DNA from: Sphingobacterium kitahiroshimense
GTDB taxonomy: Bacteria; Bacteroidota; Bacteroidia; Sphingobacteriales; Sphingobacteriaceae
Direction: 5' to 3'
NCBI RefSeq assembly: GCF_025961315.1
Contig: NZ_JAOQNK010000001.1
Location: forward strand, 1,612,001-1,676,000
Length of the DNA: 64,000 bases
Under the pieces are notes generated by a model. The model was not told where the DNA came from. It worked only from the letters and a program-made list of their open reading frames with translations, and did not search any database. The translations under genes were made by a program, and so were the position numbers. Below are positions 7,669 to 34,396 of this stretch, in pieces (position 1 is the first letter of the stretch; every line of letters starts with the position of its first letter).

Positions 7669-7715
7669 TAATACGGAAAACCGTATTAATACCTTAAACT
7701 AACTTTTTAAATTTG
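7669..7715 (+). promoter_or_regulatory. Palindromic operator D with -7 element, upstream of the KAP NTPase gene
   Basis: The palindrome TAATACGG-AAAA-CCGTATTA spans 7669-7688; symmetry extends to 11-4-11 over 7666-7691. Exactly 19 bp later comes TAAATTTG (7708-7715), a perfect TAnnTTTG -7 element. The 8-4-8 geometry and the 19 bp spacing match those at 19.8, 31.0 and 34.4 kb. The KAP gene starts 87 bp downstream of the -7 element. It probably serves as a regulator site covering the -33 region. Confidence 0.75.
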
Positions 7716-7802
7716 TAAATTGTTTACTATTCCCTAGATTTAGTAGTCATCAATAGCCTATATCACTTATTAGCATAAAAGAAATAATAACACATTAAAA
7801 AA

Positions 7803-10319
7803 ATGCTCGAGAAGACTTTAAATAAAATATCACATTTGGATGATACTAAAAGAATAAAACCATTTTGGAAATTTAGATTTGACGAGCATGCATATATTAA
7901 AGATTTTAAATATGGAAATTTAAAAAAACATGCAACAATTGCTTTAATTATATGGTTATTTAGTGATTATTTATCCCAAAAAGTCTTTAAAAAGTCAATA
8001 CTCATTATTAAACAAAACATTAACCTACCAAACTTTACAACATTCGTATATTACATTGTCATACCATTCGTTATATTTTTTTTTATTAAACGTATTAGTA
8101 AAGGTTACACACCGTCCTTTAACTCATTGATTAATTATCTTATATATGTAGCATTATTTGGTTATCTAATAGAAAGTAATTCAGAACTAATTTCCCAGCT
8201 AAAAATAGAGTCACATGAGATCATTCACATTATTTTTGTTAGTTTTTTAATATTGCTTTCAAAATGGTCTTTATATTTCGTACGAGTAAACTCTGAAGAC
8301 CTCAATTATCAATTTTTAATTGATAAAAAAAATGAAAAAGACCTCTTTGCATATAAAGGCCTTAGTAATGAAATTGAGAGATTTATACATAGCACCGAAT
8401 CCGAGCATTCATTTGCAATTGGAGTGCTGGGTAATTGGGGAGATGGTAAATCATTTCTCACGAATACACTTCTAGGAGAACTTAAAAAAAATCGCGAGGA
8501 TTATATTGTATTAGATTTTAATCCTTGGCTTTATGAAAAGAACCAACTCATTGATAGTTTTTTCAATGAATTTCTAAATGCTGTTTCTTCAATAGATCGA
8601 TCGCTAAAAAATGATTTTTCTGCATATGCAAGCAAAATTACGGATCAATCAAATAACGAGAAGATCCAACTAACTAATTTACTCGTCAAACTTTTAACAG
8701 ATTCAAGAACAATTAATGAAGTAAAATGTTCGATTAGTGAGAAATTAAAATATTCAAGAAAGAAAGTCGTCATTTTTATTGATGACACAGATCGGTTGGA
8801 TTTAGAAGAGATCCTTTGTGTTTTAAAAATCATCAGGAACAGTGCTAACTTCTCCAACACTTTTTTCATTACAGGAATAGATTACAACTACCTCCACTCA
8901 AAAGTAGAAGACCCGAAATATCTGGAAAAAATATTTAATGTTTTGGTCGCATTACCTAAAGTTAGTCCTTCCGTTTTAAAAACTGAAATAATTAAACGTT
9001 TCAAAACTAATTTTCAAGAACACCACAAATTAATTGAAGCACTCGAAGATTTACTTCAATATGAGTGGTTTATGTCGTTTCTTAAAAATTTAAGACAAGT
9101 AAATCGATTAATTAATTCATTTAAAATTGCCTATAATAAACTGGGAGAAAATGTTGATCTAATTGACTTATTAGTACTAGAAACTTTAAAGAACAGCGCA
9201 ACTAAAACATATTTTGAATTATTCAATAATAGAATAAAAGCCGAAACTTTCAACTCACCTGACAAGCTTGAAAGTGAATCGTTACGTACTCAAATAAATG
9301 AAGTTAAAAACCCTGACATACTTGAGGCCTTACAATACCTTTTCAAGAAAAAGAGTGACCATCTCAGAACATTCAATAGTAATTATCAATTGATGTTTTT
9401 TAACTATTCATACGAAGGTGTCAATATTTCAGACTTTTATGATATAATAGCTAAAAGTAAATTAGAAATAGTGGACCAATTTAATAAGTGGGTTGCTGAA
9501 AATGAAATTCATAAAAATGAATTACTACAATTATTAACCTTATATTTAAAAGGACGTCCATTGGATGATGATTACAACAATTTTATTAGAATATTATTAG
9601 AACTAGATGATTCAGAATTTTCAGAGAGAATATTTCAGGATATATATATTCCTATACCTGATAAGCATAGTAAAGCCAACGAAGATTTAATCAAAAATAA
9701 TTATTTCAACAATATATTGGGAATAATAAGTGACTATACTGACCCTAACCCCAAATTATCTTTAGACTGGACATTTTCTATTTCAAGATTTTTACTTCAA
9801 CACAGAAAAAACAATACAAATTCTACTCTAAATAATGAAGAACTTTTAATTATCACAGAAAATTACCAAAGATCTTTCGAAAAATTTCTAAAATCTAATG
9901 AAAAATTTGAGGAAAAATATTATGCATTTCAAAAATGCATAATAGAAATTAATGATGATAGAGTAATATATGACGCTGAGTGCAAAAAAATTTTTAAGAA
10001 TTATATTTTAGAAGATGATAACTTGATTGAATTATTAAAAGCATCTATTAAGCCTTTATACGGTAAATTTAATAAAAATGTTCCAGAAATTACCATAGAA
10101 GATTTTCTCCATGTAATTTTTGATGATGAAGATGAATTATTAAAACTTGTTAATAAAATTTCCCCATCTACTACAGTTCCACCAGTAAAATTTATTAAAT
10201 TATATATAAGTGAATATTATAAATACAGAAAGGATAAACAATCTTCATTCTCTAAACATATCCATGATGAGAACTTAGTTAACGAATTTGAAGTGTATTA
10301 TAATATTGATAAAATATAA
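7803..10319 (+). CDS. KAP-family P-loop NTPase with N-terminal membrane segments
   Basis: An 838-residue protein. About four hydrophobic segments lie within residues 35-165. A KAP domain follows, with Walker A GNWGDGKS near residue 210 and Walker B VVIFIDDTDRL near residue 322. The helical C-terminal half has no motif I recognise. KAP NTPases are membrane-linked STAND-like ATPases often found in bacterial conflict systems. It is a single-gene unit behind operator D, so it is probably coexpressed with the distant tubulin/Hsp70 operon. Likely a membrane-associated sensor or effector; the target is unknown. Confidence 0.85.
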   Translation: MLEKTLNKISHLDDTKRIKPFWKFRFDEHAYIKDFKYGNLKKHATIALIIWLFSDYLSQKVFKKSILIIKQNINLPNFTTFVYYIVIPFVIFFFIKRISKGYTPSFNSLINYLIYVALFGYLIESNSELISQLKIESHEIIHIIFVSFLILLSKWSLYFVRVNSEDLNYQFLIDKKNEKDLFAYKGLSNEIERFIHSTESEHSFAIGVLGNWGDGKSFLTNTLLGELKKNREDYIVLDFNPWLYEKNQLIDSFFNEFLNAVSSIDRSLKNDFSAYASKITDQSNNEKIQLTNLLVKLLTDSRTINEVKCSISEKLKYSRKKVVIFIDDTDRLDLEEILCVLKIIRNSANFSNTFFITGIDYNYLHSKVEDPKYLEKIFNVLVALPKVSPSVLKTEIIKRFKTNFQEHHKLIEALEDLLQYEWFMSFLKNLRQVNRLINSFKIAYNKLGENVDLIDLLVLETLKNSATKTYFELFNNRIKAETFNSPDKLESESLRTQINEVKNPDILEALQYLFKKKSDHLRTFNSNYQLMFFNYSYEGVNISDFYDIIAKSKLEIVDQFNKWVAENEIHKNELLQLLTLYLKGRPLDDDYNNFIRILLELDDSEFSERIFQDIYIPIPDKHSKANEDLIKNNYFNNILGIISDYTDPNPKLSLDWTFSISRFLLQHRKNNTNSTLNNEELLIITENYQRSFEKFLKSNEKFEEKYYAFQKCIIEINDDRVIYDAECKKIFKNYILEDDNLIELLKASIKPLYGKFNKNVPEITIEDFLHVIFDDEDELLKLVNKISPSTTVPPVKFIKLYISEYYKYRKDKQSSFSKHIHDENLVNEFEVYYNIDKI

Positions 10320-10520
10320 GATCTAATAAAATATTAGTTTTTAAGGAATCATCCTACAGGTAAGCATGAGAGCTGAGAAAAACATTTACTTAACTACAAT
10401 ACTAGCAGCCTCTATACCAATGGCAGTATACATTCCTAGAAAAATGCTATTAAACGATAATTTCTAAAATTACAATCATTTTTTGACCATAGTGGTAATA
10501 TATAGTAACTTTAAACCACG
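10320..10520 (+). promoter_or_regulatory. Intergenic region with promoter for the NUDIX-helicase operon
   Basis: A TTTG at 10482-10485 is followed after 20 bp by TAACTTTA at 10506-10513, close to the phylum consensus TTTG-N19/20-TAnnTTTG. The NUDIX start codon is at 10521, only 7 bases after the -7 element, so the mRNA would be leaderless or nearly so. An unrecognised 33-codon frame (10366-10467) is probably not a gene. Confidence 0.5.
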
Positions 10521-10901
10521 ATGCTGCAAGTAACCTGTGCTATAATTGAACATAATAATAAAGTGTTGATCTGTCAACGTTCTGAGACGATGAAGCTTCC
10601 TATGAAATGGGAATTTCCGGGTGGTAAGCTAGAACAGGACGAATCGAAGGAAGATTGCATAAAAAGGGAAATCAAAGAAGAATTGGGTATGATCATCACC
10701 ACTGGCCGAGTGCTAAAGCCTGTAGCATATCAATACCCTGAGTTTGCCATATGCCTCTATCCTTTTATCTGCAAATGGGAATCTGGCAAAGTGCTTCCCA
10801 CAGAACATAGGCAGGCGATATGGGTAGATGCATCTGAATTATTAAACTACGACTGGGCGGAAGCTGACCTGCCGATAGTACGTGAATATTTGAGCTTATG
10901 A
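10521..10901 (+). CDS. NUDIX hydrolase, MutT-like
   Basis: A 126-residue NUDIX protein. The Nudix box GG(K)LEQDESKEDCIKREIKEELG at about residues 34-55 fits G-x5-E-x7-REUxEExGU. MutT-type enzymes hydrolyse nucleoside diphosphates linked to another group, such as 8-oxo-dGTP. Its stop overlaps the helicase start (ATGA at 10898), so the two proteins are translationally coupled and probably function together. A decayed copy of this gene's 5' end lies downstream at 14665. The substrate is not deducible from sequence. Confidence 0.9.
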   Translation: MLQVTCAIIEHNNKVLICQRSETMKLPMKWEFPGGKLEQDESKEDCIKREIKEELGMIITTGRVLKPVAYQYPEFAICLYPFICKWESGKVLPTEHRQAIWVDASELLNYDWAEADLPIVREYLSL

Positions 10902-13900
10902 CTTTTGGAATATACGAATCGCTGATAACACAATCCTTAGCAAATAAATTGAAAGAATTGCCTGAAAAGGAATTCTATATAAACAGGACTTCACTTGATA
11001 AGGAAGAGGCGACAAGAACATTGTCAATGCATCTGCAAGAAGTAATTGCTAAGGCTTTTCAATCCATTAAATCCAACAATGATCTTTTACTTGACAAACA
11101 AATTGAAATCAGTAATCGTTTGATTATGTTCTTACACGACGAGATCACGCAATACGAATTTGAAGAAGATCTGATCGAAGTGAATGGCGGTATACTCAAA
11201 GCTGTTTTTGACAAGATTGATTCTCATTATGCCAATTTGGATCTTAGGTTAAAAGAGATTACGCCCGCTAGTCGATTGACGCAGAGTGAGCTGTTTACTG
11301 GTGGCAATATGGGTCTTTCTTTAGATAGTGAATTGAAAAAAGAAATTCGATCGGCAGACCGCATCGACCTATTAGTTTCCTTTATAAAATGGAAAGCAAT
11401 CGTGATCTTAAAAGATGCTTTCCAAGAATTCACAGCAAGAGGTGGACAATTACGCATCATTACAACCACTTATATGGGTGCGACTGATGCGAAAGCGATA
11501 CAAGAATTATCACTTTTGCCTAACACGCAAATTAAAGTATCCTACAATACAGGGAATGAACGCTTGCATGCTAAAGCGTATCTTTTTTATCGAAATACTG
11601 GTTTTCACACTGGATATATCGGCTCTTCCAATTTTTCTAGATCGGCACTTACGGATGGCCTTGAATGGAATGTAAAAGTAACGACAAAAGAAATACCACA
11701 TATCATTGATAAATTCCAGAAAACTTTTGAATCGTACTGGGAGAATGCTGAATTTGAACTTTATGATGATCAAAAGCATTTTGTACAATTGGACCGTGCG
11801 CTGAAAAGAAATAAGCTGGGTAAATCGGATCAGAATATCTTCACCCTGTTTGATCTTAAACCTTATCATTATCAAAATGAAATCTTAGAGAAGCTAAAGG
11901 TTGAGCGTAAAGTACACAATAGATATCGAAACTTAGTAGTTGCTGCGACAGGAACGGGAAAGACGGTGATCTCAGCATTTGATTTTAAAAATTACTTAAA
12001 GGATAACCCACACAGTAATTTTCTATTTATTGCGCATCGTATCGAAATATTAACGCATGCTCAAAATACATTTCGTAATGTCTTAAAAGATCAAAACTTT
12101 GGTGAGCTGCTAGGTAGTGGCTATACTGTTGCAGACAGAAGAAACGTATTTGCGACCATACAAACATTGGCTAATAGAATAAAAGAGAGCGATTTTTCTG
12201 CAGAATACTATGATTATGTGATCATGGATGAAGTACACCATATACAGGCGGATAGCTATCAACAGGTGATCAAATACTTAAAACCAAAGATAATCCTCGG
12301 ATTGACGGCTACTCCTGAACGAGCGGATGGGAAGAGCATATTAGCTGATTTCGACCAACATATTGCGGCAGAGATTCGCTTGCCAGATGCATTAAACAAC
12401 AAACTACTTTGCCCTTTCCAATATTTTGCTGTATCTGATTCGGTAGATTTGGATAAAGCGAAATGGATCAAGGGCAAATATGATACGGGAGATTTGACTC
12501 GAATCTATACGCAAAGTGATGATCGGGTAAGAGAAATCTTGCACAACTTAAACAAATACTGCAAAGATATACATGATGTAAAGGCAATCGGGTTTTGTAT
12601 CAGTATCGAGCATGCGCAATACATGCGTGATAAATTTACAAGCGCGGGTTTACTTGCTGAATCACTAACGAGTGTAAATACAGACAGGCGTCAGGAAATC
12701 ATGCATCAGTTTAGAAAAGGTGAGATCAACTACCTCTTTGTGGTAGATATCTTTAATGAAGGGATCGATATCCCTGAAATAGATACGGTTATCTTTTTAA
12801 GACCTACGGAAAGCTTAACAATATTCTTACAACAACTGGGTCGTGGTCTTCGACTACATGATCATAAAGACTCCTTAACTGTGCTGGACTTTGTAGGTAA
12901 TGCAAATCCTAATTATGACTTTGAGTCTAAATTTAGAGCCTTAATCGGTAAAACGAATACAACGGTACAGAAGGAAATTGAAAATGATTTTATTCACCTA
13001 CCCTTAGGATGCTCTATAATTTTGGAGAAAAAGGCGAAGGAAGTCATCTTAACTAACATCCGAAAAGCAACTTCTTTAAATAAGCGAGATCTGAAAAGAC
13101 GATTAGAAAACTATATCAATCAAACGGAACTTCCGTTGACATTGGAAAACTTTCTGTTTATCAACAATATTTCATTTGAACGTTTGTACCTACGCCATAC
13201 TTGGACATCGCTACGCGAAGAGGCGGGAATTATTAAAAATGTAGATCGTACGAATGAAAAAAACTATCGTGCGATGCTGTCTAAAAAATGGGCGGCGACA
13301 AATTCGCTTTCCTACTTTCGGTTTTTACTCGATTTAGCGGAAAAGGATTTTGTGTTAAACGAACTTTCAGTTTCAGAAATCGATACGTTATACCTGACGA
13401 TGCTGCACTATGATTTTTGGCAAGATGCTTCAAATGAGAGATCGCTGTTTGAGTCCATTGCAATAATAGGTAGTAACAAAAGTTATGTAGAGGAAATAAA
13501 AGTCTACTTAAAAATGCGCATCAACCTGATCGATTTTGAAGAACTAGATTGTAAGGAATTGGGATATGAACAACCGCTTAAATTGCATGCTCGATATACC
13601 CGGGACCAAATATTAGTTGCTTTTGGACTGAGCACGCTAGCAAAGAAAAATCCAAACCGTGAGGGTTCTGCAGAAAACAAAGAACTGAATACAGAGTTGT
13701 TATTTATAAACCTACAGAAATCTGAAGAGGACTTCTCTCCTACCACGATGTATGAGGATTATGCGATCAATGAAACACTGTTCCATTGGCAATCTCAAAA
13801 TGAAGCTGGCCCGCATACGACAAAGGGCTTAGGTTATATCAATCAAAGGGAACGTAATAAGAAGATATTGCTGTTCGTACGTGAGTCTCCAAAAGATAGT

Positions 13901-14047
13901 TTGGGTAATACTGCAGGTTACGTATTTGTGGGGCTTGGTAATTTTCTCAAACACCAGGGCTCAAAGCCCATGTCGATCACTTGGAAATTGGAAGAACCGA
14001 TTCCCGAATACTTATGGACAGCTTCTGCTAAAATGGCTGTTGGTTGA
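10898..14047 (+). CDS. PLD-nuclease/superfamily 2 helicase/DUF3427 fusion protein
   Basis: A 1049-residue multidomain protein. Residues 130-280 resemble a phospholipase-D-type nuclease, with HAKAYLF near 224 and GSSNFS about 20 residues later. A superfamily 2 helicase follows: Walker A ATGTGKT near 350, DEVH near 445, LTATPE near 468 and the arginine-finger block QLGRGLR near 646. The C-terminal 350 residues match the DUF3427 type. Proteins of this layout occur widely in defence islands. Coupled to the NUDIX gene by a 4-base overlap. Probable role: DNA translocation and cleavage against foreign DNA; this is inferred. Confidence 0.88.
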   Translation: MTFGIYESLITQSLANKLKELPEKEFYINRTSLDKEEATRTLSMHLQEVIAKAFQSIKSNNDLLLDKQIEISNRLIMFLHDEITQYEFEEDLIEVNGGILKAVFDKIDSHYANLDLRLKEITPASRLTQSELFTGGNMGLSLDSELKKEIRSADRIDLLVSFIKWKAIVILKDAFQEFTARGGQLRIITTTYMGATDAKAIQELSLLPNTQIKVSYNTGNERLHAKAYLFYRNTGFHTGYIGSSNFSRSALTDGLEWNVKVTTKEIPHIIDKFQKTFESYWENAEFELYDDQKHFVQLDRALKRNKLGKSDQNIFTLFDLKPYHYQNEILEKLKVERKVHNRYRNLVVAATGTGKTVISAFDFKNYLKDNPHSNFLFIAHRIEILTHAQNTFRNVLKDQNFGELLGSGYTVADRRNVFATIQTLANRIKESDFSAEYYDYVIMDEVHHIQADSYQQVIKYLKPKIILGLTATPERADGKSILADFDQHIAAEIRLPDALNNKLLCPFQYFAVSDSVDLDKAKWIKGKYDTGDLTRIYTQSDDRVREILHNLNKYCKDIHDVKAIGFCISIEHAQYMRDKFTSAGLLAESLTSVNTDRRQEIMHQFRKGEINYLFVVDIFNEGIDIPEIDTVIFLRPTESLTIFLQQLGRGLRLHDHKDSLTVLDFVGNANPNYDFESKFRALIGKTNTTVQKEIENDFIHLPLGCSIILEKKAKEVILTNIRKATSLNKRDLKRRLENYINQTELPLTLENFLFINNISFERLYLRHTWTSLREEAGIIKNVDRTNEKNYRAMLSKKWAATNSLSYFRFLLDLAEKDFVLNELSVSEIDTLYLTMLHYDFWQDASNERSLFESIAIIGSNKSYVEEIKVYLKMRINLIDFEELDCKELGYEQPLKLHARYTRDQILVAFGLSTLAKKNPNREGSAENKELNTELLFINLQKSEEDFSPTTMYEDYAINETLFHWQSQNEAGPHTTKGLGYINQRERNKKILLFVRESPKDSLGNTAGYVFVGLGNFLKHQGSKPMSITWKLEEPIPEYLWTASAKMAVG

Positions 14048-14962: not shown

Positions 14963-15307
14963 TCATTGTTTTGCTCGATTAATGGAATACACGGAGAGCA
15001 CAAAAATTAAAAACAAAATTCCATTTACAATAATGTATGACGCTTCTTTGAAGTCAGTAAACGAAAAAGTAAGATTACTAAAAAATGCAATAGCAAAAAA
15101 TATTATCGAAATTGTCCTGATAAGCGATGTTGTCCGCGGTAAATCAAACCTAATTCCGATCGTAAACGTTAGTGTAATGATCAAAAAAAGTAAACTTCCG
15201 AAAGTCAGTAAGTCCTTATTAAAACTGACACTGAACATATTGAAACCGTAAGCGATTAAACTACTTACAGCAACTGCAATAATTGTTTTTACAAGATCTA
15301 TTTTCAT
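14963..15307 (-). CDS. Small four-helix membrane protein
   Basis: A 114-residue hydrophobic protein with about four transmembrane segments (residues 8-25, 33-50, 62-80, 90-108). It has no catalytic motif. It lies 5 bases after the SPFH gene and is the last gene of a minus-strand set with the SPFH and TerB/zinc-ribbon genes. Probably a membrane partner of the SPFH protein. Family unknown to me. The overlapping plus-strand frame at 14982 is a shadow. Confidence 0.65.
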   Translation of the reverse strand: MKIDLVKTIIAVAVSSLIAYGFNMFSVSFNKDLLTFGSLLFLIITLTFTIGIRFDLPRTTSLIRTISIIFFAIAFFSNLTFSFTDFKEASYIIVNGILFLIFVLSVYSINRAKQ

Positions 15308-23295: not shown

Positions 23296-23300
23296 CGTGG

Positions 23301-24155: not shown

Positions 24156-27100
24156 CTTCTTGTAATTTATTTAACATTTCACCTAGCATACCGCGAACGA
24201 TGTGGAAAGACAGATTATCCGATACCATATCTGTCATCGAAATCTGTTTGAGTCGCTGTGCGAGACCTGCTTCCAGAAATTCAATGGCAACCTTCTTATC
24301 TAGTAGGATACTTTCAAATTTTCGTTTGAGATCATAATCGATACCAAAATCATTCTTATAATTAATCCCTGGCAGTTGAAGGAACAAGGAAACAAACTCC
24401 TTATAAGCTACAAATACACTTTCATTAAATTGACCTTTTAGATCCTCGTAATTCAATGGATTATCATTAGATATAATGGTTCCTTCGTTATCTCCTAAAT
24501 AACTTCGAAACTTTTCATCGAGACTATTCATGGAAAGTTCTGCGAGAATCTCTTCTCCTTCTTCCAGTACATTTATTGCTCCTTTTGAAGTCAGTTCTTT
24601 TGGATTATCCGGCACCAATACCTTTACTCGCATTTTGTCGGGAGATTCATGCAATCCGTAAACAGCATTAATAATTGCAGTTGCATATGTGACAATACTT
24701 TCCTTTTTAATAGTCTTATCAATAATCGATAAGAATTTAGATCCTGTTCCGGAAAAGGTCAAGTAGCTGGGGGCAGGTATATCAGCAATCTTCATTGCTT
24801 TAACGCTATTATAGATGATAGCGGCAAGATAGAATAAAAATACAGCCCGTTCATTAGAATGCATTGCTAAGAATCCATTAAAGCTTTTGTTGTTCACATC
24901 TTGTAGTTCTTTTTTCTTATCAATGGAAAAATAATAAGCAATGATATCTTCGATCTTACCACCTTGCTGGATTGTAGCCTCTATCTCATGTAAATTATGG
25001 TAGCCTTTTACACTAGATAATCCAGAAAAAAACTTAGTACCAAGTTTGTAAAATCCATTGGATCTAAAATCTGTCGCATAACCCGCGGAATAAAGATAAT
25101 TGGCGCCAAAAAGTACAGATGAAATATTAATAACTTTTCGATTCTGATATACAACGCTATCAATAGTTCCACCTCCAATGTCTAGAGATAAAATGGTATT
25201 AGTAGTTCCTAAAATCTTTCCGGTACTCGCAATTGAATAAAATGGAGCAATAGACTCGGAGAGTTTTATTATTTCAATTCCTTGACCAAAATGAATGGCA
25301 ACAAGTTGTTCTATCAATCCAGCAATTAAATTTATTTTATACTGCCCATAACTTAATGGATAAGTCCAAGTAAATCTTGTTTTAGAAAGGTCGCCTCGTT
25401 CGACTAACACTTTGGTTTTACACATGACAACAAGCTGTTCCAAAAAGGAATGTACCCAAGCTTCACCCTCTAGATTCTCAATACCATTTACCCATTTAAG
25501 ATTAGTTCTTGGTGTAACATTATTGAAAGTAGGTAAGCTAGTTTTTTCGTAAGTAAACCCAATATTATAATCCAAAATGGATTGATAGTTAGCTGGATTA
25601 AAATTATTATAATCGAAAAGGACTGTTCGAATTGGGAAATTATAATTCGATCCTTTTGACACATTCTCTGCTATAAATTCTAAATCCTTATGATTCTGAA
25701 TTTCATTCAAGCTACTAATATCAGTATCTAGCTTATTAAATGACGTAGCAAAACCATTTTTATCGAATGGTAGATCCAATGGTGAAGGTACACTTCCATT
25801 AACAGCATACTCAACATGAGTGTTAGAGGTACCAAAATCAAGGGCAAAAGTAAATGCTCCACCAATATGGCGTTCATCTCGCCATAAAGGAATAAGATAA
25901 TTACGGCAAGAACTTCCTTCTTCTTGAAAATGGATGGCATTAAAATGCTGTCTACATCTAAAATAATAGGTATTATAAAATGATCCATTGCGGCTATCAC
26001 GCCTCGCTTTCATACTCCTGGCAGCAGCAGGCATGCCATCAAAAGCAAGCTGAAAGGCATGGCTATAATCATTTAATCCCTCGTCGATAACCTGAACATA
26101 ATAATTAGGATTCACAGTAGCCTTTTGAATTGGAAATAACTGGAAATATTTAGCACAAGGTATTATTTTCCCTTTCTGAGAATTCATATCCATTGTATCA
26201 TACTTCTTTTCCAATTCGACAACATGCCGTCCCCCGTCAATCGGAATCCGCAACTTCACATTAACTGAACTCTTCTTCTTTATTATCTCAATCATTTTCT
26301 TTCCAGAAAAACTACATTCGATCAGATCTTTCTCGCTGAAATAAGTGAAAAATGTAGATTTTAAAGGGAGAAGATAGCCAACCCCTTGCTGGTCGGAATC
26401 GTTAGAGAAATTTCCATCAAAAAAAGATTCTTTATTAACTTCATAAGGTGTCTCGTAAATCTCGGACTCCAGAAAATCATCTACGGTCAAAAAAGGGTAC
26501 TTAATATCCTTGCCGGGTAAGATCCGTATATCTAGTATTTGATCCGTCGGATGCTGAACCTTTGTATTGACGTCCCATTTAACTCCTTGGTACAAATAAT
26601 CAAGCATACCTAAATTTCCGTTGGTCGCAAGTACCATAGGGAGAAGACCTTGTACCGTTTTGGATGCATGAATCAAAAACTGAGATTCTCTACCGATTCG
26701 CTCATGGGTATTTTTTACACTTTTGGTACGAAAAGGCACATTAAATACTTCAACGAGATAATCATTTCCATCGATCGTTGTTTTGTTCTCTAAAAATTGA
26801 GCATCCAAAGTATTCACCGCCGTCATAAATACGCTGTCTGTATCCATTTTTTCTTTGATATTGCGTTTTACGTAATTATGAAACGTGGACATATACTGGT
26901 TCAATGAAGGATTTTCCTTAAAAAAAGCCATCAAATAGAGAATAAAGTCTTCATCTCTATTTTTTAGTGATGCAGGCTCCGTAAATAACTTACGGTCATG
27001 TAAAGTAACTTGTGCAAAACCCAAATCATTGGCTGAAGTAAATACGAGTGTCTTTGGAGAGGTGGCACCAATAATTTTATGATTGAAATAGAAAATGTAA

Positions 27101-27543
27101 ATTCGATTAAGCTTATCAAAATTAAATGCTTGATCGTCCTGTTTAAGAAAAAGATCCAATGTACGTCCCAGTAATTGGTGACGGGAATAACTGGATTCTA
27201 CTAACTTGACCAGATCGCGCTGTTTATCCCAAACCTTAATTGTCAACTCACCATTGATAGAATCTTTATTATAGAGCAGTTCCAATAGATCCAGACAATC
27301 ACTTACTAATTTGTGATGATGCGTATATCCATCTAATTTATTCTTTAAATCATTGAAATGTTTAAATGCCGAATGAAACAAATCCAATCGCGCAAATGGT
27401 GATGGTATAGAGGTTGGTAATGCATTACTTTGATCGCCGTCAGGGCTTATAATTTTATCAATAACAACACTACTATAATCTGTTCCTCGTGCTTGCCAAT
27501 GTGTCATTGGGGTATCTTCAAAAAGTCTAAAAACTTTTGCCAT
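24142..27543 (-). CDS. Giant Hsp70/actin-fold ATPase with large N-terminal extension
   Basis: A 1133-residue protein. The C-terminal half has actin/Hsp70 ATPase motifs in order: phosphate-1 FALDFGTSNTHVEY near residue 570, phosphate-2 LSLDIGGGTIDSVVY near 785 and the adenosine motif LTFSGTGSKFL near 930. The N-terminal about 560 residues show no motif known to me. It is twice the usual size of DnaK and has no substrate-binding domain of the DnaK type. It lies 4 bases after the tubulin-like gene. It could be a polymer-forming or switch ATPase that controls the ZorAB-like channel. ATP binding is well supported; the rest is inference. Confidence 0.85.
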   Translation of the reverse strand: MAKVFRLFEDTPMTHWQARGTDYSSVVIDKIISPDGDQSNALPTSIPSPFARLDLFHSAFKHFNDLKNKLDGYTHHHKLVSDCLDLLELLYNKDSINGELTIKVWDKQRDLVKLVESSYSRHQLLGRTLDLFLKQDDQAFNFDKLNRIYIFYFNHKIIGATSPKTLVFTSANDLGFAQVTLHDRKLFTEPASLKNRDEDFILYLMAFFKENPSLNQYMSTFHNYVKRNIKEKMDTDSVFMTAVNTLDAQFLENKTTIDGNDYLVEVFNVPFRTKSVKNTHERIGRESQFLIHASKTVQGLLPMVLATNGNLGMLDYLYQGVKWDVNTKVQHPTDQILDIRILPGKDIKYPFLTVDDFLESEIYETPYEVNKESFFDGNFSNDSDQQGVGYLLPLKSTFFTYFSEKDLIECSFSGKKMIEIIKKKSSVNVKLRIPIDGGRHVVELEKKYDTMDMNSQKGKIIPCAKYFQLFPIQKATVNPNYYVQVIDEGLNDYSHAFQLAFDGMPAAARSMKARRDSRNGSFYNTYYFRCRQHFNAIHFQEEGSSCRNYLIPLWRDERHIGGAFTFALDFGTSNTHVEYAVNGSVPSPLDLPFDKNGFATSFNKLDTDISSLNEIQNHKDLEFIAENVSKGSNYNFPIRTVLFDYNNFNPANYQSILDYNIGFTYEKTSLPTFNNVTPRTNLKWVNGIENLEGEAWVHSFLEQLVVMCKTKVLVERGDLSKTRFTWTYPLSYGQYKINLIAGLIEQLVAIHFGQGIEIIKLSESIAPFYSIASTGKILGTTNTILSLDIGGGTIDSVVYQNRKVINISSVLFGANYLYSAGYATDFRSNGFYKLGTKFFSGLSSVKGYHNLHEIEATIQQGGKIEDIIAYYFSIDKKKELQDVNNKSFNGFLAMHSNERAVFLFYLAAIIYNSVKAMKIADIPAPSYLTFSGTGSKFLSIIDKTIKKESIVTYATAIINAVYGLHESPDKMRVKVLVPDNPKELTSKGAINVLEEGEEILAELSMNSLDEKFRSYLGDNEGTIISNDNPLNYEDLKGQFNESVFVAYKEFVSLFLQLPGINYKNDFGIDYDLKRKFESILLDKKVAIEFLEAGLAQRLKQISMTDMVSDNLSFHIVRGMLGEMLNKLQEDENW

Positions 27544-27547
27544 AATA

Positions 27548-29062
27548 TTAAAATAAGTTTTTGATTAACATACTATCAGTCGCATTATAAAACTTCACCA
27601 ATAGCTTGTTTTCTACTGTTGGATATTTACTTTTACGATGTTCATTCAAGGCTGCAGTCAATAAATCATAGCTTTTCTCCTTAAATAATTTGAAGAGTCC
27701 TTTTCTCTCTGCGATGCCAGCAACTAATTGAAGTAAATCCGAGTTCTGGGTAGTAATTCCAGTAACGGAACCTTGATTATCGATAATTTCTTTGATATTA
27801 AAAGGAGCAAAACTGATCCTATTTCGTTTCATTTCTCCTAACCATATTCGATATTGTTGTAAGAATCTGGTTAAATGAGCGTAAAATGTAGAACTTAAAA
27901 AGTTTTGATCGATTAATGGTGATGTTTCCTTTGCAAAAGGTGCAGATAAGTTTTCCTTTAGCTCATTTTCCAAGTACAATGAAAAACACAACAATTGGGT
28001 TAAATTAACTTGGATCTGATTTTGAGTTTCAAGAGCTAAATCTTTAAAAGTAACTACAGGATGTTCCAATGATAGATCATTAACACCAAACTCTTTGTAC
28101 TTCGGGTTTTGGGCATTTCCATTGCTGGTTTCCAATGTATTATCATTGGCAAAATCAACGATAGCGAGCGCCGCCGCTAATTCGACAAAATGGCTATCAT
28201 TTTTCTGTCCACTACCACCAACGACATTCTTATAAACATTGTTATTATCATCTGCGATATAATAAAGGGCATTGATATCCTTGCTTTCACTTATATTATT
28301 ATGATAATATTGTAATGCCGCCTTGGTTTTAGAATAGAAAGTCGAGCTCTGAATACTATCTGTAAGATCACCATCTAACTTGAAATAAGGCATGACCGTT
28401 ATTGCGCCAACAACAGCATTGCGAAGGTGATCAAAGTTTTTTCCATTAACAATGCCTTGTCGAATATTCTTCAGAATTAATGGAAAACCTGCTGCACCCG
28501 TTCCTCCAAAAATGGATGAAATAATAAAGATTCGGTCACTACTGGTAAAGCAATTAGCAAATTGATTAAATTCATCCGATTCGGTAAACTTATTTAATAC
28601 AATAGAACCAATATTGGGATTACCTTGAAACCCAACCTCTAGATCTAAATTGAGATTTGCTTCTGAAAATAATATATCCATGAGTGCTTGATTACTGCCC
28701 CCATCTTCTAGCACATTGTAATCGATAAAATCTTTAAATTTTCCCCCATTAAGTCCGTCAATACTCAAACGAAACTCTTTTCCTATAGCATTTGTCCCGA
28801 CTGTACCGATCACGTCTCCAAGAGATTCTATCTTGTTCTTAAAAAAAACATTTTCGTTTTCTGGAGCTACGGCTTTCTGAATATTACGATATTCATTTAA
28901 TAAGGACTCCGTTTTAGCGACATCAGCTGCAGATGAGTCCGGATCTAATATGATTGGAACTACCTCATATCCTGTACGAACTCCTGAAGCAAGTAGCATT
29001 GTTAATGATTTCAATACGCGAGACCCTGTCCCCCCTATTGCAAAAACATATAATTTAGGCAT
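27548..29062 (-). CDS. Tubulin/FtsZ-like GTPase (Tubulin_2 type)
   Basis: A 504-residue protein. A Rossmann start VFAIGGTGSRVLKSL is at residues 6-20, and the tubulin signature is seen as IFGGTGAAGFP near residue 190, a variant of GGGTGSG. This is the arrangement of the Tubulin_2-like bacterial family. The C-terminal about 250 residues are helical and unlike FtsZ. Cytoskeletal GTPases of this kind occur in predicted conflict operons. The gene is 2 bases after a small membrane protein gene and 4 bases before the Hsp70-like gene, so a direct complex is likely. GTP use is expected but not shown. Confidence 0.85.
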   Translation of the reverse strand: MPKLYVFAIGGTGSRVLKSLTMLLASGVRTGYEVVPIILDPDSSAADVAKTESLLNEYRNIQKAVAPENENVFFKNKIESLGDVIGTVGTNAIGKEFRLSIDGLNGGKFKDFIDYNVLEDGGSNQALMDILFSEANLNLDLEVGFQGNPNIGSIVLNKFTESDEFNQFANCFTSSDRIFIISSIFGGTGAAGFPLILKNIRQGIVNGKNFDHLRNAVVGAITVMPYFKLDGDLTDSIQSSTFYSKTKAALQYYHNNISESKDINALYYIADDNNNVYKNVVGGSGQKNDSHFVELAAALAIVDFANDNTLETSNGNAQNPKYKEFGVNDLSLEHPVVTFKDLALETQNQIQVNLTQLLCFSLYLENELKENLSAPFAKETSPLIDQNFLSSTFYAHLTRFLQQYRIWLGEMKRNRISFAPFNIKEIIDNQGSVTGITTQNSDLLQLVAGIAERKGLFKLFKEKSYDLLTAALNEHRKSKYPTVENKLLVKFYNATDSMLIKNLF

Positions 29063-29064
29063 GA

Positions 29065-29457
29065 TTAAAATGGAATTTTGGATACATTCTTTGATAGCTT
29101 TTTGAATAAAAGCGATAAAACAATGAAAAGCAATGTGGTTAAAAGAAAACTGCCAAAAGCTAGTGCTGAATATGCTTCACTTCGAAAATCTAAACTTTCG
29201 TTTTCAAAAATCCCCTTACAATCATTGTATAAAAATACTGCACTTATTACAGCGCTTAATAATAGCAGTATTAACCAAACAATACGTTTAGCAAACTTTG
29301 GTCTATCTAATAGAAAATAATAAATTAGTGAAAACGCAAGAGCACATAAAATCGCAGCAAGTGCATACCTTTGATAGAGAAACCGTTCGAACATCTCTAA
29401 TGAGAAATCTGTTGCGTAATAAAACTTCTCATAAAAACTTGCAAAAAAATCATTCAT
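29065..29457 (-). CDS. Small membrane protein of the tubulin/Hsp70 operon
   Basis: A 130-residue protein with three membrane segments (about residues 32-52, 58-76, 97-118) and a short basic tail. It lies between the vWA-like lipoprotein gene (6 bases) and the tubulin-like gene (2 bases). Unrecognised family. It could anchor the tubulin-like protein to the inner membrane. Confidence 0.7.
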   Translation of the reverse strand: MNDFFASFYEKFYYATDFSLEMFERFLYQRYALAAILCALAFSLIYYFLLDRPKFAKRIVWLILLLLSAVISAVFLYNDCKGIFENESLDFRSEAYSALAFGSFLLTTLLFIVLSLLFKKLSKNVSKIPF

Positions 29458-29463
29458 AGTTGG

Positions 29464-30933
29464 TTATTTAGTTAGATTATATTTAATTTCAAATAAGACG
29501 TCATTGTTGTTATTGTGAATTTTGTAAGCTTCATAAACTCCATGAACTAAATTATTGAAGCCAAATGTCTGTTGAAGCGTGCTATGTACATCGGAATCAT
29601 CTCTTGTTGACGAGCTGCTTATCCAATTTGGAATTTGACTTCGATAGCTGATATTTAATTGTTCAGGAAATGTTTTTTGATCAATTTTCAAGGTCATTAA
29701 ATGAGTAAATCCGTTGTCTTTAATTCTATTCCAATCATTTTGTTTGATCAATGCCGGTTGATTATTTTTTGGAATTTCTTGAATAGCAACTACACTAGCA
29801 CCAGAACTGATGGAATAGTTATCAATATCCAATAGCGATTTTTTATCGGGAAAATTATTTAGATCTACTGCTAAAGAAAACTGAAATATTCCATCTAAAA
29901 ACTTAATCTTCTTCAAAGATGTGGGTTCGTTAGCACGGTAATGTGCTTGACCTTTACTATTCGTGGACAGATACTGTGTATTTGGATTAACATCTTTCTT
30001 TCCTTCTAAAAAAAAGCTATTCTGATAACCGGGTAAATCTTCTAGTTTAAGTTTACTCAATAGATCTTGAACCAGTATATCATCTCCCATAATCCAAACA
30101 TAATAGGGTCTGTCTACATTGTGTAGACTCGTTTTTTCATTTTTATAATTATAGTATACCCCATTGAAACTAGAGTTCAGTTTAATTATTGCAGTTGAAA
30201 AATCTGACTGTTTCAAGCGTTGCATGTAAGCATTCTTGGTTAAGTTCTCCTGATAAATCAAACCTTCCTGACTTGACCTACCTTTTTCTAACGAATAGAT
30301 ACAATCTGATACAAAAATGGAAACATCGTTTTGCTTCATTTTAGTTAAGACTTTCTCAAAACATTGATTCAACTCGGAAACAAACTGATTTCCAACCTTG
30401 AAAGGCGCTACTCCAGGTTCTAGGGATTTAAAAAAACTATCTACATTACTGATATCGCTAGGATATATATCAGAATTAATGAAACTGAATTTAACGTGTT
30501 CTTGATCATAATGATAATTAAGTCCAATAACCAGGTTTGATAAAACTGCTTCGAAATTAGAAACGCCCTTTACGTAACCATCCATACTCGCAGAATTTTC
30601 TAAATAAATAGAAAAATTAGGAACTACTTTAATTCCATCACAGTTTCCGAGATCAAGTTTACTTTTGCCAGCATTTTTACCTAAATATTCCTTGATAGAA
30701 GACTGCTCTACTTTACCGTTTTTAATAAATCTCTTTAATGATCTATCCTCATAATTCTTTTGAACATATTTGGTTAACTCATTTAGATCATTACAATCCA
30801 ATACTCCATCTTTACCTAGCTCCTCTATTTTTTTTGTTAATTCTGACTTTGTGCCAAAAATCCCACAACTATAATACAGGATACTACATGTCAGGATAAC
30901 TAAAACTACCTTCCCATAATTGTTTATTTTCAT
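29464..30933 (-). CDS. vWA-like lipoprotein, first gene of the tubulin/Hsp70/ZorAB-like operon
   Basis: A 489-residue protein with a signal peptide and lipobox-type YYSCG (Cys near residue 23). After a helical region (30-100) comes FSIYLENSASMDGYVKG (near 108-124), which resembles the metal-site loop of vWA domains with E-N-S-A-S-M in place of DxSxS. VSIFVSDCIYSL (near 205) fits the next strand and loop of such a domain. The C-terminal 200 residues are beta-rich and unknown. It should face the periplasm or the outer membrane and could sense an envelope signal. Expressed from the promoter of operator B. Confidence 0.65.
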   Translation of the reverse strand: MKINNYGKVVLVILTCSILYYSCGIFGTKSELTKKIEELGKDGVLDCNDLNELTKYVQKNYEDRSLKRFIKNGKVEQSSIKEYLGKNAGKSKLDLGNCDGIKVVPNFSIYLENSASMDGYVKGVSNFEAVLSNLVIGLNYHYDQEHVKFSFINSDIYPSDISNVDSFFKSLEPGVAPFKVGNQFVSELNQCFEKVLTKMKQNDVSIFVSDCIYSLEKGRSSQEGLIYQENLTKNAYMQRLKQSDFSTAIIKLNSSFNGVYYNYKNEKTSLHNVDRPYYVWIMGDDILVQDLLSKLKLEDLPGYQNSFFLEGKKDVNPNTQYLSTNSKGQAHYRANEPTSLKKIKFLDGIFQFSLAVDLNNFPDKKSLLDIDNYSISSGASVVAIQEIPKNNQPALIKQNDWNRIKDNGFTHLMTLKIDQKTFPEQLNISYRSQIPNWISSSSTRDDSDVHSTLQQTFGFNNLVHGVYEAYKIHNNNNDVLFEIKYNLTK

Positions 30934-30970: not shown

Positions 30971-31017
30971 CAAAAGTAAAAGATGCGAGTATGCGTTGGT
31001 TACGGTTTCCCATAACC
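30971..31017 (-). promoter_or_regulatory. Operator B and promoter of the tubulin/Hsp70/ZorAB-like operon
   Basis: On the minus strand the palindrome GGTTATGG-GAAA-CCGTAACC (31017 to 30998) is followed after 19 bp by TACTTTTG (30978 to 30971); the start codon is 38 bp further on. It has the same 8-4-8 layout and the same spacing as operators A, C and D. The region 31018-31372 otherwise contains only the terminator of the response regulator gene. Confidence 0.8.
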
Positions 31018-31372: not shown

Positions 31373-32038
31373 CTAAATAATACCTAGCTCTTTGCAATGT
31401 GCAACTAACTGTTCATTTTTGGTGAAATTTAGCACATCTTTCATGATATTGAGCCGCTTTTCAATACTGCTTAAACTAGATGGAATAACTTCTCTTTGCT
31501 GCAAATAAAGTGGCATATCTTTTTGAGATATCCCTTCGTATAATAACCGAATGATGTGTAGATCAAATTGTGTAAACTCATGCGAGTTGCGCTCTTGAAT
31601 AACTTTTTTTACATCTGGCGATTGATAGGTTTTATTATTATATACAATCTGAAGTGCTTCGCGTAAATGTCGCCCGTCATGCCGTGCTTTACGGACCATG
31701 CCATCAATTTCATTTAACTTAAACATCTCACTTATCTTACTAGTTCGATCTTTTGCTGTGAATAATATGACCTTAATATCAGGTTGCACCATCTTAATCG
31801 CTTTAATCAGTGATAAGCCATCTTTTAATTGCTGTGGACTTTCATCATCTTCAAATTCGATATCGGTAATAATCAAATCATATGGATCCTTATCGCGAAG
31901 TGCATTATTTATCCAAGTCAATGCATGATCGCAATAATGAACGTACTTGACATCTTCTACACCAAGATCTTTAAGTGTTTTCTGTACTGAAATATTGGTC
32001 ATCTCGTGATCTTCGGCAATGAGTACTTTTTTAAACAT
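31373..32038 (-). CDS. NarL/LuxR-type response regulator
   Basis: A 221-residue regulator. The receiver domain is at 1-125, with acidic ED at 9-10, phospho-acceptor Asp59 in LIITDIEF and conserved Lys96 in LFTAKD. The C-terminal part (150-210) fits a LuxR-type helix-turn-helix in the order of helices (IIRLLYEGISQKDMPLYL, SSLSSIEKRLNIM), though it departs from the usual consensus. It lies 13 bases after its histidine kinase gene. Beside a set of operons sharing palindrome WTAYGG-N4-CCGTAW it is the best candidate to bind it; that is inference. A decayed paralogue lies at 17968-18058. Confidence 0.85.
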   Translation of the reverse strand: MFKKVLIAEDHEMTNISVQKTLKDLGVEDVKYVHYCDHALTWINNALRDKDPYDLIITDIEFEDDESPQQLKDGLSLIKAIKMVQPDIKVILFTAKDRTSKISEMFKLNEIDGMVRKARHDGRHLREALQIVYNNKTYQSPDVKKVIQERNSHEFTQFDLHIIRLLYEGISQKDMPLYLQQREVIPSSLSSIEKRLNIMKDVLNFTKNEQLVAHCKELGII

Positions 32039-32051: not shown

Positions 32052-33734
32052 TTATAATATGGGTATATTGATTTTCACACTAAGCCCCTTCCTCTCTTCT
32101 TTGACAAAGATAATTTCACCACCAATACCTTCGATACGGGAAACCATATTAGATAAACCTTTTCCATATGTTTTTGAATCTGCTAGACCAATCCCATTAT
32201 CTTTATAAAAAATTTCTAACTGATTACCCTGGTTTTCAAAACGAATAACAACTTGATCAGCTTGACTGTGCTTTTTCATATTGACCATTAATTCCTGCAG
32301 GACATGACTAACCTCTTCCTTGGCCCTTTTATTTAGTCGTGTCCATAGATCTGGTTCATTTCCGGCAATAAGGACACGACGGTGATCACTTGCAAATGAT
32401 TTGAGGAGATCTGCCAGTTTTTCACTGTAAGAAACCTCAGCTACAGTCTGCTCTTCAACATCATGTGAGATATCCCGCGATTTTTGGTACATATCGTCTA
32501 GTTTGTCCAGTACACCTTCCCGATCAATATCTTCCTTATACTCGATTTCAGTCATTACACGATATATTCCATTGGCCACTACATCGTGAATTTTCTTCGA
32601 AAGATGAAGCTGATTTTCTTTGATCTTATTCTGTGCTTCAAGTTCAAGTCGCTGTTTACGTTTTTTGTACCAGAATACTCCAAGGACAATTGAAAACATA
32701 AGAAAACCTATACCAATACGCTGAATAATTAAATGCGATTCCTTTTTTTCATTCTCTTTTTCTAATACTAAATTCTGTGCTTTGCTCTTTTCGGACTCAT
32801 AACGAATTAAAGCAAACTGATTCTTAGCTGCTGTTCTTGCAGTTTGAAGACTATCGTTTAAACTAAGATATGTGCTGAGATAGCGCTCAGAGTAAATAGG
32901 GTTCATTTGGACCAAACCTCTTAATGCGTTGAGTTGATCATCAGCACTTTTAATTTTTTTAGCGATCTCATATTGCTTACTCAGATAATATATGGATGAA
33001 TCCATATCTCTACCTTCATAGTATTTAGAAAGTGTTGCATAACTTGAGTTTTGCCCCCATAGATCATTTTCTTTTAACCGTATATTTAAAGCTATATGGT
33101 AGACTAGAATTGGATTATAAGAATGACTAGACGCCCATTTCGTTTTTGCCAAATTATTTAAAAACTTAGCGTACGCAGTAGTACCTTTTGGAGTCTTAGT
33201 AAGAATATCATCATAAAGCTTAATAGATTCATCATAGCGTTTGACATTTCTTAAACAAACGGCTAAATTATTTTTATATAACAAAATATTGTCATGATCT
33301 ATTGAATACTGAATGGCTAGCCTATAATATGGAATAGCTTGATCAAACTGTTGCATTTCATCTGTTGCATTGGCTATTGTATTATAAGTATGACTTAATA
33401 TTGCTTGCTGATTCTTGTCTTTCGGATCCAAATACTTGATGGCTTCCACAGCTGTCTCTTGAGCTCCAAAAAAATCACCCGAATCATATTGGATAGTAGC
33501 CATATAAATTAAACAACGTGCAACGTAAACGCTGTTTTTGTACTGAAGATACTTTTCCTTTGCCTTATTAAAGTAATAAAATGTACTATCACTTCTGCCA
33601 TTTTCCCATAAAAAAAATGCTTTGTCATAGTATTCATTTTCATTCAATATTTTTTCTGCCTCTTTGTGCTTAACATCTGTACAAGAAACAGTAAAACTAA
33701 GTAGTAGAAGGCAAAAGATTAAGATTTTATACAC
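32052..33734 (-). CDS. TPR sensor histidine kinase (HisKA_3/HATPase_c)
   Basis: A histidine kinase of about 560 residues. A lipoprotein-like signal ends in TVSC. TPR repeats fill residues about 40-310, a coiled coil lies before the membrane helix near 340-365, the HisKA_3 histidine is in KKIHDVVANG (near 390), and the HATPase motifs NMKKHS, DNGIGL and GKGLSNM lie near 485-540. A TTG at 33761 gives 569 residues, but a TAAAATTTG element overlaps that TTG (33767-33759), so the GTG at 33734 is the better start and puts the signal peptide first. Sensing is likely by TPR in the periplasm. It pairs with the response regulator gene downstream. Confidence 0.85.
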   Translation of the reverse strand: MYKILIFCLLLLSFTVSCTDVKHKEAEKILNENEYYDKAFFLWENGRSDSTFYYFNKAKEKYLQYKNSVYVARCLIYMATIQYDSGDFFGAQETAVEAIKYLDPKDKNQQAILSHTYNTIANATDEMQQFDQAIPYYRLAIQYSIDHDNILLYKNNLAVCLRNVKRYDESIKLYDDILTKTPKGTTAYAKFLNNLAKTKWASSHSYNPILVYHIALNIRLKENDLWGQNSSYATLSKYYEGRDMDSSIYYLSKQYEIAKKIKSADDQLNALRGLVQMNPIYSERYLSTYLSLNDSLQTARTAAKNQFALIRYESEKSKAQNLVLEKENEKKESHLIIQRIGIGFLMFSIVLGVFWYKKRKQRLELEAQNKIKENQLHLSKKIHDVVANGIYRVMTEIEYKEDIDREGVLDKLDDMYQKSRDISHDVEEQTVAEVSYSEKLADLLKSFASDHRRVLIAGNEPDLWTRLNKRAKEEVSHVLQELMVNMKKHSQADQVVIRFENQGNQLEIFYKDNGIGLADSKTYGKGLSNMVSRIEGIGGEIIFVKEERKGLSVKINIPIL

Positions 33735-33797
33735 GGCTAAAGATTTAACCGAATTTATCAAATTTTACCCAACAATACAATTGTGAGTAACTAAAAA

Positions 33798-34014: not shown

Positions 34015-34147
34015 GGTAGTTCCATATGCTCCGTGCATAGGATTACTACATGTGTTTTCAGAAGGCCTTCTGAATTTTTTGGGAAGTAAGAGTGTCACTC
34101 ACGGGAGGCAAAAGCTGCTTCCCAAACCGGCTAACGACTACCGTGAG
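34015..34147 (-). ncRNA. Candidate structured RNA leader
   Basis: An unusually dense set of complementary segments: TATGC/GCATA (34025-34039), the 18-bp palindrome TTCAGAAGGCCTTCTGAA (34057-34074), GGGAAG/CTTCCC (34081-34123) enclosing GAGTG/CACTC, and long-range pairs GGTAGT with ACTACC (34015, 34137) or, alternatively, CTCACGG with CCGTGAG (34098, 34141). The last two pairings compete, as in a switch. It lies between a -7 element at 34227-34220 and the 52-codon gene on the minus strand. I cannot match it to a known class; a 6S-Flavo-like RNA or a leader are possibilities. Confidence 0.4.
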
Positions 34148-34219
34148 ATCTTCTCATTGTGAAATCTATTTAGTATCTTAGTCTCATAAACTAATCAATC
34201 TATCATCTGACTTCGAAAA

Positions 34220-34227
34220 CAAAGGTA
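34220..34227 (-). promoter_or_regulatory. -7 element upstream of the structured leader
   Basis: TACCTTTG on the minus strand is a perfect TAnnTTTG. A partial half-site of the regulon palindrome (GTCGG followed by AAAC) lies at the corresponding distance, but the other half is absent. It would start the transcript near 34212. Confidence 0.4.
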
Positions 34228-34349
34228 TAGCGGTTAAAAAGCTATACACCAACCGTTTCCGACATTACTGCTTTTACTGATATATTACTGGGATTACCGA
34301 TGTATTTCCGATATTTCCGGTACATGAAGGAAGAATTTAAAGATGTTTT

Positions 34350-34396
34350 GATTATGGTTTTCCGTAATTACCGATTGGATAATTGATTTATTTTTG
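34350..34396 (+). promoter_or_regulatory. Operator C and promoter of the 414-residue protein gene
   Basis: The palindrome GATTATGG-TTTT-CCGTAATT (34350-34369) is followed after 19 bp by TATTTTTG (34389-34396). The start codon is at 34402, so the transcript would be leaderless or almost so, unless a later start is used. Same geometry as operators A, B and D. Confidence 0.75.

Follow-up and report, generated by a model that had tools for sequence, protein, structure and literature searches.

The 64,000-nucleotide stretch of the Sphingobacterium kitahiroshimense genome that we analyzed (contig NZ_JAOQNK010000001.1, positions 1,612,001 to 1,676,000; hereafter the window, whose coordinates we use unless stated otherwise) carries a palindromic box, WTAYGG-N4-CCGTAW, at several of its promoters. 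We think it very likely that this box is the site of a NarL-type response regulator (RR) encoded in the same window (31373-32038), which, together with a sensor histidine kinase that contains TPR repeats, would activate a scattered regulon through promoters with the -7 element TAnnTTTG. Because the palindrome lies at scattered genes in Sphingobacterium and its relatives and a copy of it lies within the kinase gene, ahead of the RR gene, the pair likely turns on a common set of genes, of which many in Sphingobacterium are predicted anti-phage defenses. Our reasons come from comparing sequences: the sites themselves and their strict spacing, their scatter over the genome, the conservation of the copy in the kinase gene, the co-occurrence of the box with the RR, and an enrichment of defense genes among the scanned targets in Sphingobacterium.

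The original prediction placed the palindrome at 7669-7688, 19790-19809, 30998-31017, and 34350-34369, each 19 bp ahead of a TAnnTTTG, and we find all four there. The sequence TTATGG-N4-CCGTAA is common to three of them on one strand, as had been noted; the palindrome at 7671 reads ATACGGAAAACCGTAT. The expectation that such sites would be rare by chance also holds: in the window, WTAYGG-N4-CCGTAW matches at 5 places (6 strand-matches), whereas 100 dinucleotide shuffles average 0.03 and never exceed 1. The full arrangement (the 16-bp core, N21, and TAnnTTTG, which puts the -7 element 19 bp past the end of the 20-bp 8-4-8 box) occurs six times in the window, each time with its -7 element, versus never in the 100 shuffles. 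TAnnTTTG is the -7 consensus of Bacteroidota sigma-A (PMC9723704). The box at 19790-19809 has TACTTTTG exactly 19 bp away on both sides, so it would serve both the HsdR_N gene (- strand) and the thermonuclease gene (+ strand). A further palindrome, at 32132-32151 (- strand), was absent from the original prediction: it lies inside the histidine-kinase gene, has TATCTTTG at 19 bp, and is directed at the RR gene. The boxes, their -7 elements, and the genes around them are as follows (aa, amino acids).

7669-7688, unstranded: box 1, TAATACGGAAAACCGTATTA
7708-7715, + strand: -7 element TAAATTTG, 19 bp past box 1
7803-10319, + strand: KAP NTPase, 838 aa, the first gene past box 1 (PADLOC PifA, E = 7.5e-42)
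10521-10901, + strand: NUDIX protein, on the same strand behind the KAP gene; co-transcription putative
10898-14047, + strand: PLD/ResIII/DUF3427 helicase (PADLOC mREase_IV, E = 6.6e-212), behind the KAP gene; co-transcription putative
19790-19809, unstranded: box 2, bidirectional, AGTTACGGGATACCATAACT
19763-19770, - strand: -7 element TACTTTTG for HsdR_N
18664-19713, - strand: stand-alone HsdR_N protein, 349 aa
18115-18627, - strand: DUF6591 lipoprotein-like gene, same strand behind HsdR_N
16601-17845, - strand: weak zinc ribbon protein, 414 aa, same strand behind HsdR_N
15313-16578, - strand: SPFH/GYF gene, same strand behind HsdR_N
14963-15307, - strand: gene of 114 aa, same strand behind HsdR_N
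19829-19836, + strand: -7 element TACTTTTG for the thermonuclease
20066-20632, + strand: thermonuclease (SNase) with a lipoprotein-like N-terminus
30998-31017, unstranded: box 3, GGTTACGGTTTCCCATAACC
30971-30978, - strand: -7 element TACTTTTG, 19 bp past box 3
20977-30933, - strand: seven-gene operon encoding proteins of 489, 130, 504 (tubulin-like), 1133, 284, 541, and 229 aa
32132-32151, - strand: box 4, the kinase-gene box, core ATATGGTTTCCCGTAT, inside the kinase gene
32105-32112, - strand: -7 element TATCTTTG, 19 bp past the kinase-gene box and 66 bp ahead of the RR start
31373-32038, - strand: RR, 221 aa, receiver plus NarL-type helix-turn-helix (HTH), the predicted binder of the box
32052-33761, - strand: TPR sensor histidine kinase, 569 aa
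34350-34369, unstranded: box 5, GATTATGGTTTTCCGTAATT
34389-34396, + strand: -7 element TATTTTTG, 19 bp past box 5
34402-35646, + strand: membrane partner protein, 414 aa, divergent neighbor of the kinase, from a family kept beside the kinase-RR pair
35668-35985, + strand: 105-aa protein with a signal-peptide-like start, behind the membrane partner

The multi-operon regulon that had been proposed extends over the source genome and into related genera. The whole 6.29-Mb single-contig genome has 23 forward and 28 reverse matches to the palindrome, versus 7 and 3 for a reversed control pattern. Part of this excess is a single repeat family, with about a dozen copies at about 0.68-1.18 Mb (L010-L016) whose box is ATACGGGAAGCCGTAA, so the box count of this genome is inflated; the flanks differ among the other sites. 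(Several of the repeat copies have TATTTTCG at 19 bp and lie just ahead of YbjQ-like genes, a family name given by eye, or of fragments beginning MIVTSTNTIEGREVLRYFDP.) Outside the window, there is a perfect -7 element 19 bp behind the boxes at genome positions 88944, 659380, 662189, and 5280831, as well as 18 bp behind the box at 5284936, and another perfect arrangement lies inside a second kinase gene (L021, 14864). Near-perfect elements lie at 1569465 (TATATTCG), at 1606313 (TATATTTT), and at 14598 and 5933603 (both TATTATTG, and both identified by eye). The genes behind these outside boxes include a DruH-like gene (L007), an FtsK-like gene with Shango SngA and SngB (L009), PbeA (L018), PDC-S06 with LmuA (L023), and a vWA protein with an N6-methylase/HATPase protein (L006).

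The spacing is similarly fixed in other genomes. Around the listed boxes of six RR-positive genomes from the genus (78 regions with 89 boxes), a perfect TAnnTTTG is 19 bp away in 23 cases and 18 bp away in 6; the remaining offsets between 0 and 39 contribute just 4 in total. Of the 29 boxes whose perfect -7 element is at 18 or 19 bp, 24 lie between genes and the remaining 5 are kinase-gene boxes. The 13 boxes with five of the six -7 bases include 12 that are intergenic, and 34 of the 47 boxes with fewer than five matching bases are inside genes. Two Flavobacterium genomes (25 regions, 28 boxes) have the -7 element at 19 bp 13 times, never at 18 bp, and 4 times elsewhere. We did not observe broad use of the box at housekeeping genes, which the original prediction had named as a reason to abandon the idea, although there are exceptions: a box ahead of a 649-residue lipoprotein-like gene that is followed by pyrR- and pyrB-like genes (L118), and another ahead of a WbqC-like gene (L117), with these names given by eye.

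The box inside the kinase gene is found near the end of that gene in 55 of 56 distinct Sphingobacteriaceae RR loci, and TAnnTTTG is exactly 19 bp away in 54. (L043 has no kinase-gene box, and L146 has TAATTTTA.) Read in frame, the box encodes N/S, T/M, two variable residues, R, and I/M. The arginine codon is CGT in 55 of 55 cases and the threonine codon is ACG in 53 of 53, whereas in the RR genes these codons account for 119 of 543 and 72 of 423. The two middle residues can be G-N (27 loci), V-S (17), E-N (5), G-T (4), or G-S (2), and the palindrome is kept throughout. Frozen synonymous codons around varying middle residues are what selection on the DNA would give, and they rule out that the box is a by-product of protein conservation. 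We infer that the kinase-gene box is an extra promoter for the RR, under the control of the RR itself.

In each of the two groups that we compared, independently, the boxes are two to four times more numerous where the RR is present than where it is absent, and the control patterns have no such excess. Among 300 Sphingobacteriales genomes, which we searched for both the RR (called at E = 1e-20 or better) and the box, the 168 with the RR average 16.3 strand-matches (control 9.2), versus 7.0 (control 9.9) for the 132 without it. The difference appears within each of the three largest genera (P = 4.7e-9, 2.3e-12, and 2.9e-5) and within the small genera g4 and g9 (P = 0.03 and 0.05), and permuting the labels within genera did not reach it in any of 5000 runs; these tests control for relatedness at the genus level only. 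Among 101 Flavobacterium genomes (RR called at E = 1e-40 or better), the 51 with the RR have 12.6 boxes and the 50 without have 3.3 (controls 3.1 and 2.9; P = 1.6e-11). Within the Flavobacterium genomes of 3.0-4.5 Mb that are at least 90% complete (25 versus 17 genomes), P is 6e-4. The guess that the RR is the binder is backed by this co-occurrence and by the conservation of the box in the adjacent kinase gene. Across a sample of the phylum, the RR is present in 30 of 296 genomes, which belong to four families. As to individual genomes, G175, from the same species, has only a second RR (59% identical to the window's RR) and is missing the window's two-component copy at E = 1e-20, so the two-component system varies within the species. 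Three genomes from genus g12 of the same family (G187, G223, and G132) are RR-negative yet have 20-28 palindrome matches (controls 11-20), and only distant regulators were found in them.

The RR is 79% identical to its relatives in two Sphingobacterium records (two related loci). Its receiver matches Pfam's Response_reg (E = 1.3e-10), and E9, D10, D59, and K117 are invariant in 38 sequences. The best PDB match of its profile is RcsB (E = 2.7e-11). The predicted structure (predicted local distance difference test score, pLDDT, of 87.6) has four C-terminal helices, and its full-length fold matches RcsB, LiaR, and VraR, so the RR models as a NarL/RcsB-type regulator. Identity in these fold alignments is about 20%, and the DNA site of RcsB, LiaR, and VraR differs from the box here. 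The Pfam scan gave no WYL match; as a receiver plus HTH protein, the RR is not of the BrxR/WYL or RptR type. The genome encodes just one close paralog (59% identity), in a second cluster with boxes of its own, and the next matches are at E = 7e-4. The kinase has HATPase_c (E = 3.1e-6) and TPR repeats in Pfam, as well as an H-D motif that we identified by eye in the translation, and phosphotransfer is predicted. We propose that the kinase would phosphorylate the RR, that the phosphorylated RR would bind the palindrome as a dimer (the inverted-repeat geometry of the site agrees with this), and that the bound dimer, placed at -33, would recruit RNA polymerase to the TAnnTTTG 19 bp downstream. One two-component system would thereby turn on a scattered regulon, including the RR gene via the kinase-gene box, and in Sphingobacterium this regulon would be a defense program.

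For the target genes, we considered the 27 intergenic promoters with a perfect -7 element in the source genome and the six others, with the partner gene excluded, and we scanned the genes of 17 of these with PADLOC. Nine of the 17 lead to a match at 1e-10 or better: KAP/PifA, SNase C3a212 (twice), DruH, FtsK/SspH-like, Shango, PDC-S46, SIR2 with HerA, and Cas6 with Cas8b. Our first control, boxes without a -7 element (10 proteins), was impure, as L077 (SIR2) and L088 (methyltransferase, dGTPase) had defense matches, so we turned to another background set, 65 genes that neighbor chance palindromes, and found such a match in at most 8 of them (8 families, with one member each). Fisher P for the enrichment is 8e-4 if 8 are counted and 4e-5 if 4 are. 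Promoters with five of the six -7 bases have PADLOC matches at L064 (HKD with Snf2) and L096 (Ppl) and none at L073, L081, or L128. Within six genes of a box, and including the window, HsdR_N homologs recur at 18 loci and the SNase lipoprotein at 13, across families. Because the scanned targets in Sphingobacterium are enriched in anti-phage systems, the kinase-RR pair likely coordinates defense there.

Several results sit poorly with this account. Eight of the 17 scanned promoters have no defense match at 1e-10 (HsdR_N, four proteins of the tubulin-like operon, L061, L093, L095 with a weak match of 1.5e-5, L117, L118, and L133), and 10 of the 27 promoters were outside the scan. The enrichment P values are rough because the genes within each operon were picked by eye. 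In Flavobacterium, PADLOC matched none of the 10 target proteins scanned at 1e-10 or better (the best was LeoA, 1.7e-8), so "defense regulon" is supported for Sphingobacterium only. Outside of Sphingobacteriaceae, the kinase-gene box with a perfect -7 element at 19 bp is found in just 11 of 21 RR loci (the single locus of family f2, three of the five in f3, and seven of the 15 in f4). At one locus (L169), the distance is 18 bp and the open reading frame caller puts the box outside the kinase gene, and several of the box-less loci are a genome's second RR copy (L166, L171) or have tandem RRs (L158/L176, L160). Similarly, the partner-gene box, which is strict in the listed Sphingobacterium loci, is strict (18 bp) in 2 of 19 loci from other genera; some of the others match at 9 of 10 positions and the rest have none. 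In the small genus g12, genomes with and without the RR do not differ significantly (3 versus 4 genomes, P = 0.2). There are also 22 RR-negative Sphingobacteriales genomes with 12 or more palindrome matches; a profile search for the RR in 12 of these gave distant regulators only (best E = 1.1e-13), and none at all in one genome. Finally, the Pfam scan of the RR gives the receiver but no HTH model, so the assignment of a LuxR/GerE-type HTH rests on the fold.

The regulon might be about envelope stress, or about exported nucleases and foreign DNA generally, with defense captured secondarily as mobile islands gain from the box; the mechanism at the DNA would be the same. The Flavobacterium targets, with their lack of PADLOC matches, fit this idea, as they include exported EEP-type nucleases, HsdR_N, PLD, SH3, and lipoprotein-like proteins. 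The recurrence of the SNase lipoprotein fits it too, and some of the Sphingobacterium targets are lipoproteins or are of no recognized kind. On the other hand, the Sphingobacterium boxes precede Shango, DruH-like, SIR2-HerA, type I-B Cas, KAP, and other systems above the background rate. We take this alternative seriously, but we consider it unlikely.

The promoters of Bacteroidota sigma-A have a TTTG element at -33. In 171 aligned promoters with the 19-bp spacing, we found no conserved TTTG upstream of the -7 element: the box occupies that place, and the two central bases of its spacer are always A or T. This absence agrees with the original suggestion that the box stands in for the -33 contact. 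Because the box lies at the -33 place and no TTTG is conserved there, our best reading is that binding of the RR to the box would activate transcription. If the box were an operator for repression, then the bound regulator would block RNA polymerase at -33 and keep costly genes silent until a signal releases it. The box does overlap the expected -33 contact of the polymerase, and two known regulators of defense islands, BrxR and RptR, are reported to be repressors of their islands (PMC9122601, PMC12255303). However, a blocking site would tolerate more positions, while the fixed spacing (23 plus 6 of 33 perfect -7 elements) points to contact with the polymerase, as does the lack of a conserved TTTG. 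Repression seems improbable to us.

It seems more doubtful still that the box is bound by some other regulator, such as an unlinked NarL-type protein, and that this two-component system is simply one more of its targets. Some RR-negative genomes do keep many palindromes, but box number tracks the presence of this RR in two distant genome groups, and 55 of 56 loci have the box inside the adjacent kinase gene. That the palindromes are due to chance, to copies of one repeat (as about a dozen in the source genome, with ATACGGGAAGCCGTAA, are), or to conservation of the kinase protein can be rejected as the main explanation, as the shuffles give no full arrangement, the flanks of the other sites differ, and the 19/18-bp spacing, the conserved kinase-gene boxes, and the frozen codons all contradict it.

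Returning to activation by the RR, the kinase's TPR region and the membrane partner (34402-35646) are candidate sensors of the signal. Of 20 RR loci from other genera, 19 have a relative of the partner next to the kinase and on the strand opposite to it. In the model of the partner, the N-domain is helical and confidently predicted, and a small C-domain follows a predicted membrane helix; the mean pLDDT is 69.9, and no known fold was matched in the PDB (best E = 1.6). A homolog search gave 18 proteins, none with Pfam domains or informative names. The -7 element of the partner gene (34389-34396) ends 5 bp ahead of the ATG at 34402, so its mRNA would be almost leaderless. Between the kinase and the partner (window 34250-34380, and upstream of the partner gene in L137-L156), there are TTTCCG/ATTCCG units about 9-11 bp apart, which are perhaps half-sites or the sites of a second regulator. 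By eye, small exported proteins behind boxes share a motif, YH....C.GL..C, with the C-terminus of one partner protein (L189, L207, L155).

The seven-gene operon behind box 3 had been described as tubulin/Hsp70/ZorAB-like. The tubulin match is below Pfam's cutoff, and the 541-residue protein that carried the Hsp70 label has no Pfam match. The 489, 504, 1133, and 541 aa proteins had no PADLOC match, and the 229, 284, and 130 aa proteins were outside the scan, so that membership in Zorya is unsupported by the four proteins scanned. By eye, the 229-aa protein looks ZorB/OmpA-like. Related operons begin behind boxes at L066 and L129. Elsewhere in the window, genes for a PAPS-reductase-domain protein, a weak AAA_16 protein, DUF4007, and a class V aminotransferase lie in a row (672-7055, - strand), which we take to resemble a phosphorothioation-type cluster. 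A Schlafen group 3 helicase with an S24-peptidase match (36093-38599, - strand) adjoins a MazG-like gene.

The layout of the box, hexamer-N4-hexamer, is like that of the ComA site in Bacillus subtilis (the ComP-ComA system), which has two inverted hexamers and a 4-nt spacer: TTGCGG-N4-CCGCAA there, TTACGG-N4-CCGTAA here (PMC4797271). ComA has another hexamer, belongs to another phylum, and serves a quorum response, and the accessible part of that report describes no copy inside a kinase gene (PMC4797271). PpoS/PpoR of Marinomonas mediterranea, which is of the BarA/UvrY type, is also a histidine kinase with a LuxR-type RR, and it controls two CRISPR-Cas systems and phage resistance; but it works in a gammaproteobacterium through a BarA/UvrY-CsrA cascade, its cas regions have predicted CsrA sites, and the text available describes no direct common DNA box (PMC8523701). 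CovR of Streptococcus agalactiae is an RR that directly controls an immune operon, but as a repressor of the distal cas9 promoter, and the accessible text presents it as a virulence regulator with one immune target (PMC12216829). BrxR (of the WYL family) and RptR are dedicated regulators of phage-defense islands that bind inverted or direct repeats, but they repress their own island and are not two-component systems, and no dispersed regulon is described in the accessible portions (PMC9122601, PMC12255303). Both two-component control of single immune systems and island repressors are already known. Among the literature matches listed, with subscription papers mostly outside the scope, there was no dispersed two-component regulon of multiple defense systems in Bacteroidota.

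A broader idea, which we hold only tentatively, is that the Bacteroidia own a dedicated immune two-component system. The TPR kinase and the conserved membrane partner would sense attack on the envelope; the NarL-type RR, on a ComA-like box that replaces the -33 element, would turn on many unrelated defense systems wherever an acquired island carries the box; and the system would amplify itself from an operator in the kinase's coding sequence, at loci from four families.

These results bear on how bacteria time the expression of many costly defense systems. Across two large genera, the operons that are under joint command can be predicted from one short, exactly spaced site. If our reading is correct, then there is a conserved regulator whose removal should lower several defenses at once. 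It would also offer a guilt-by-regulon route to new defense genes, for example the tubulin-like operon, the stand-alone HsdR_N protein, the nuclease lipoprotein, and the membrane partner. And it would be a clear case of a coding sequence that preserves an operator within it, with the freezing of synonymous codons as the visible sign.

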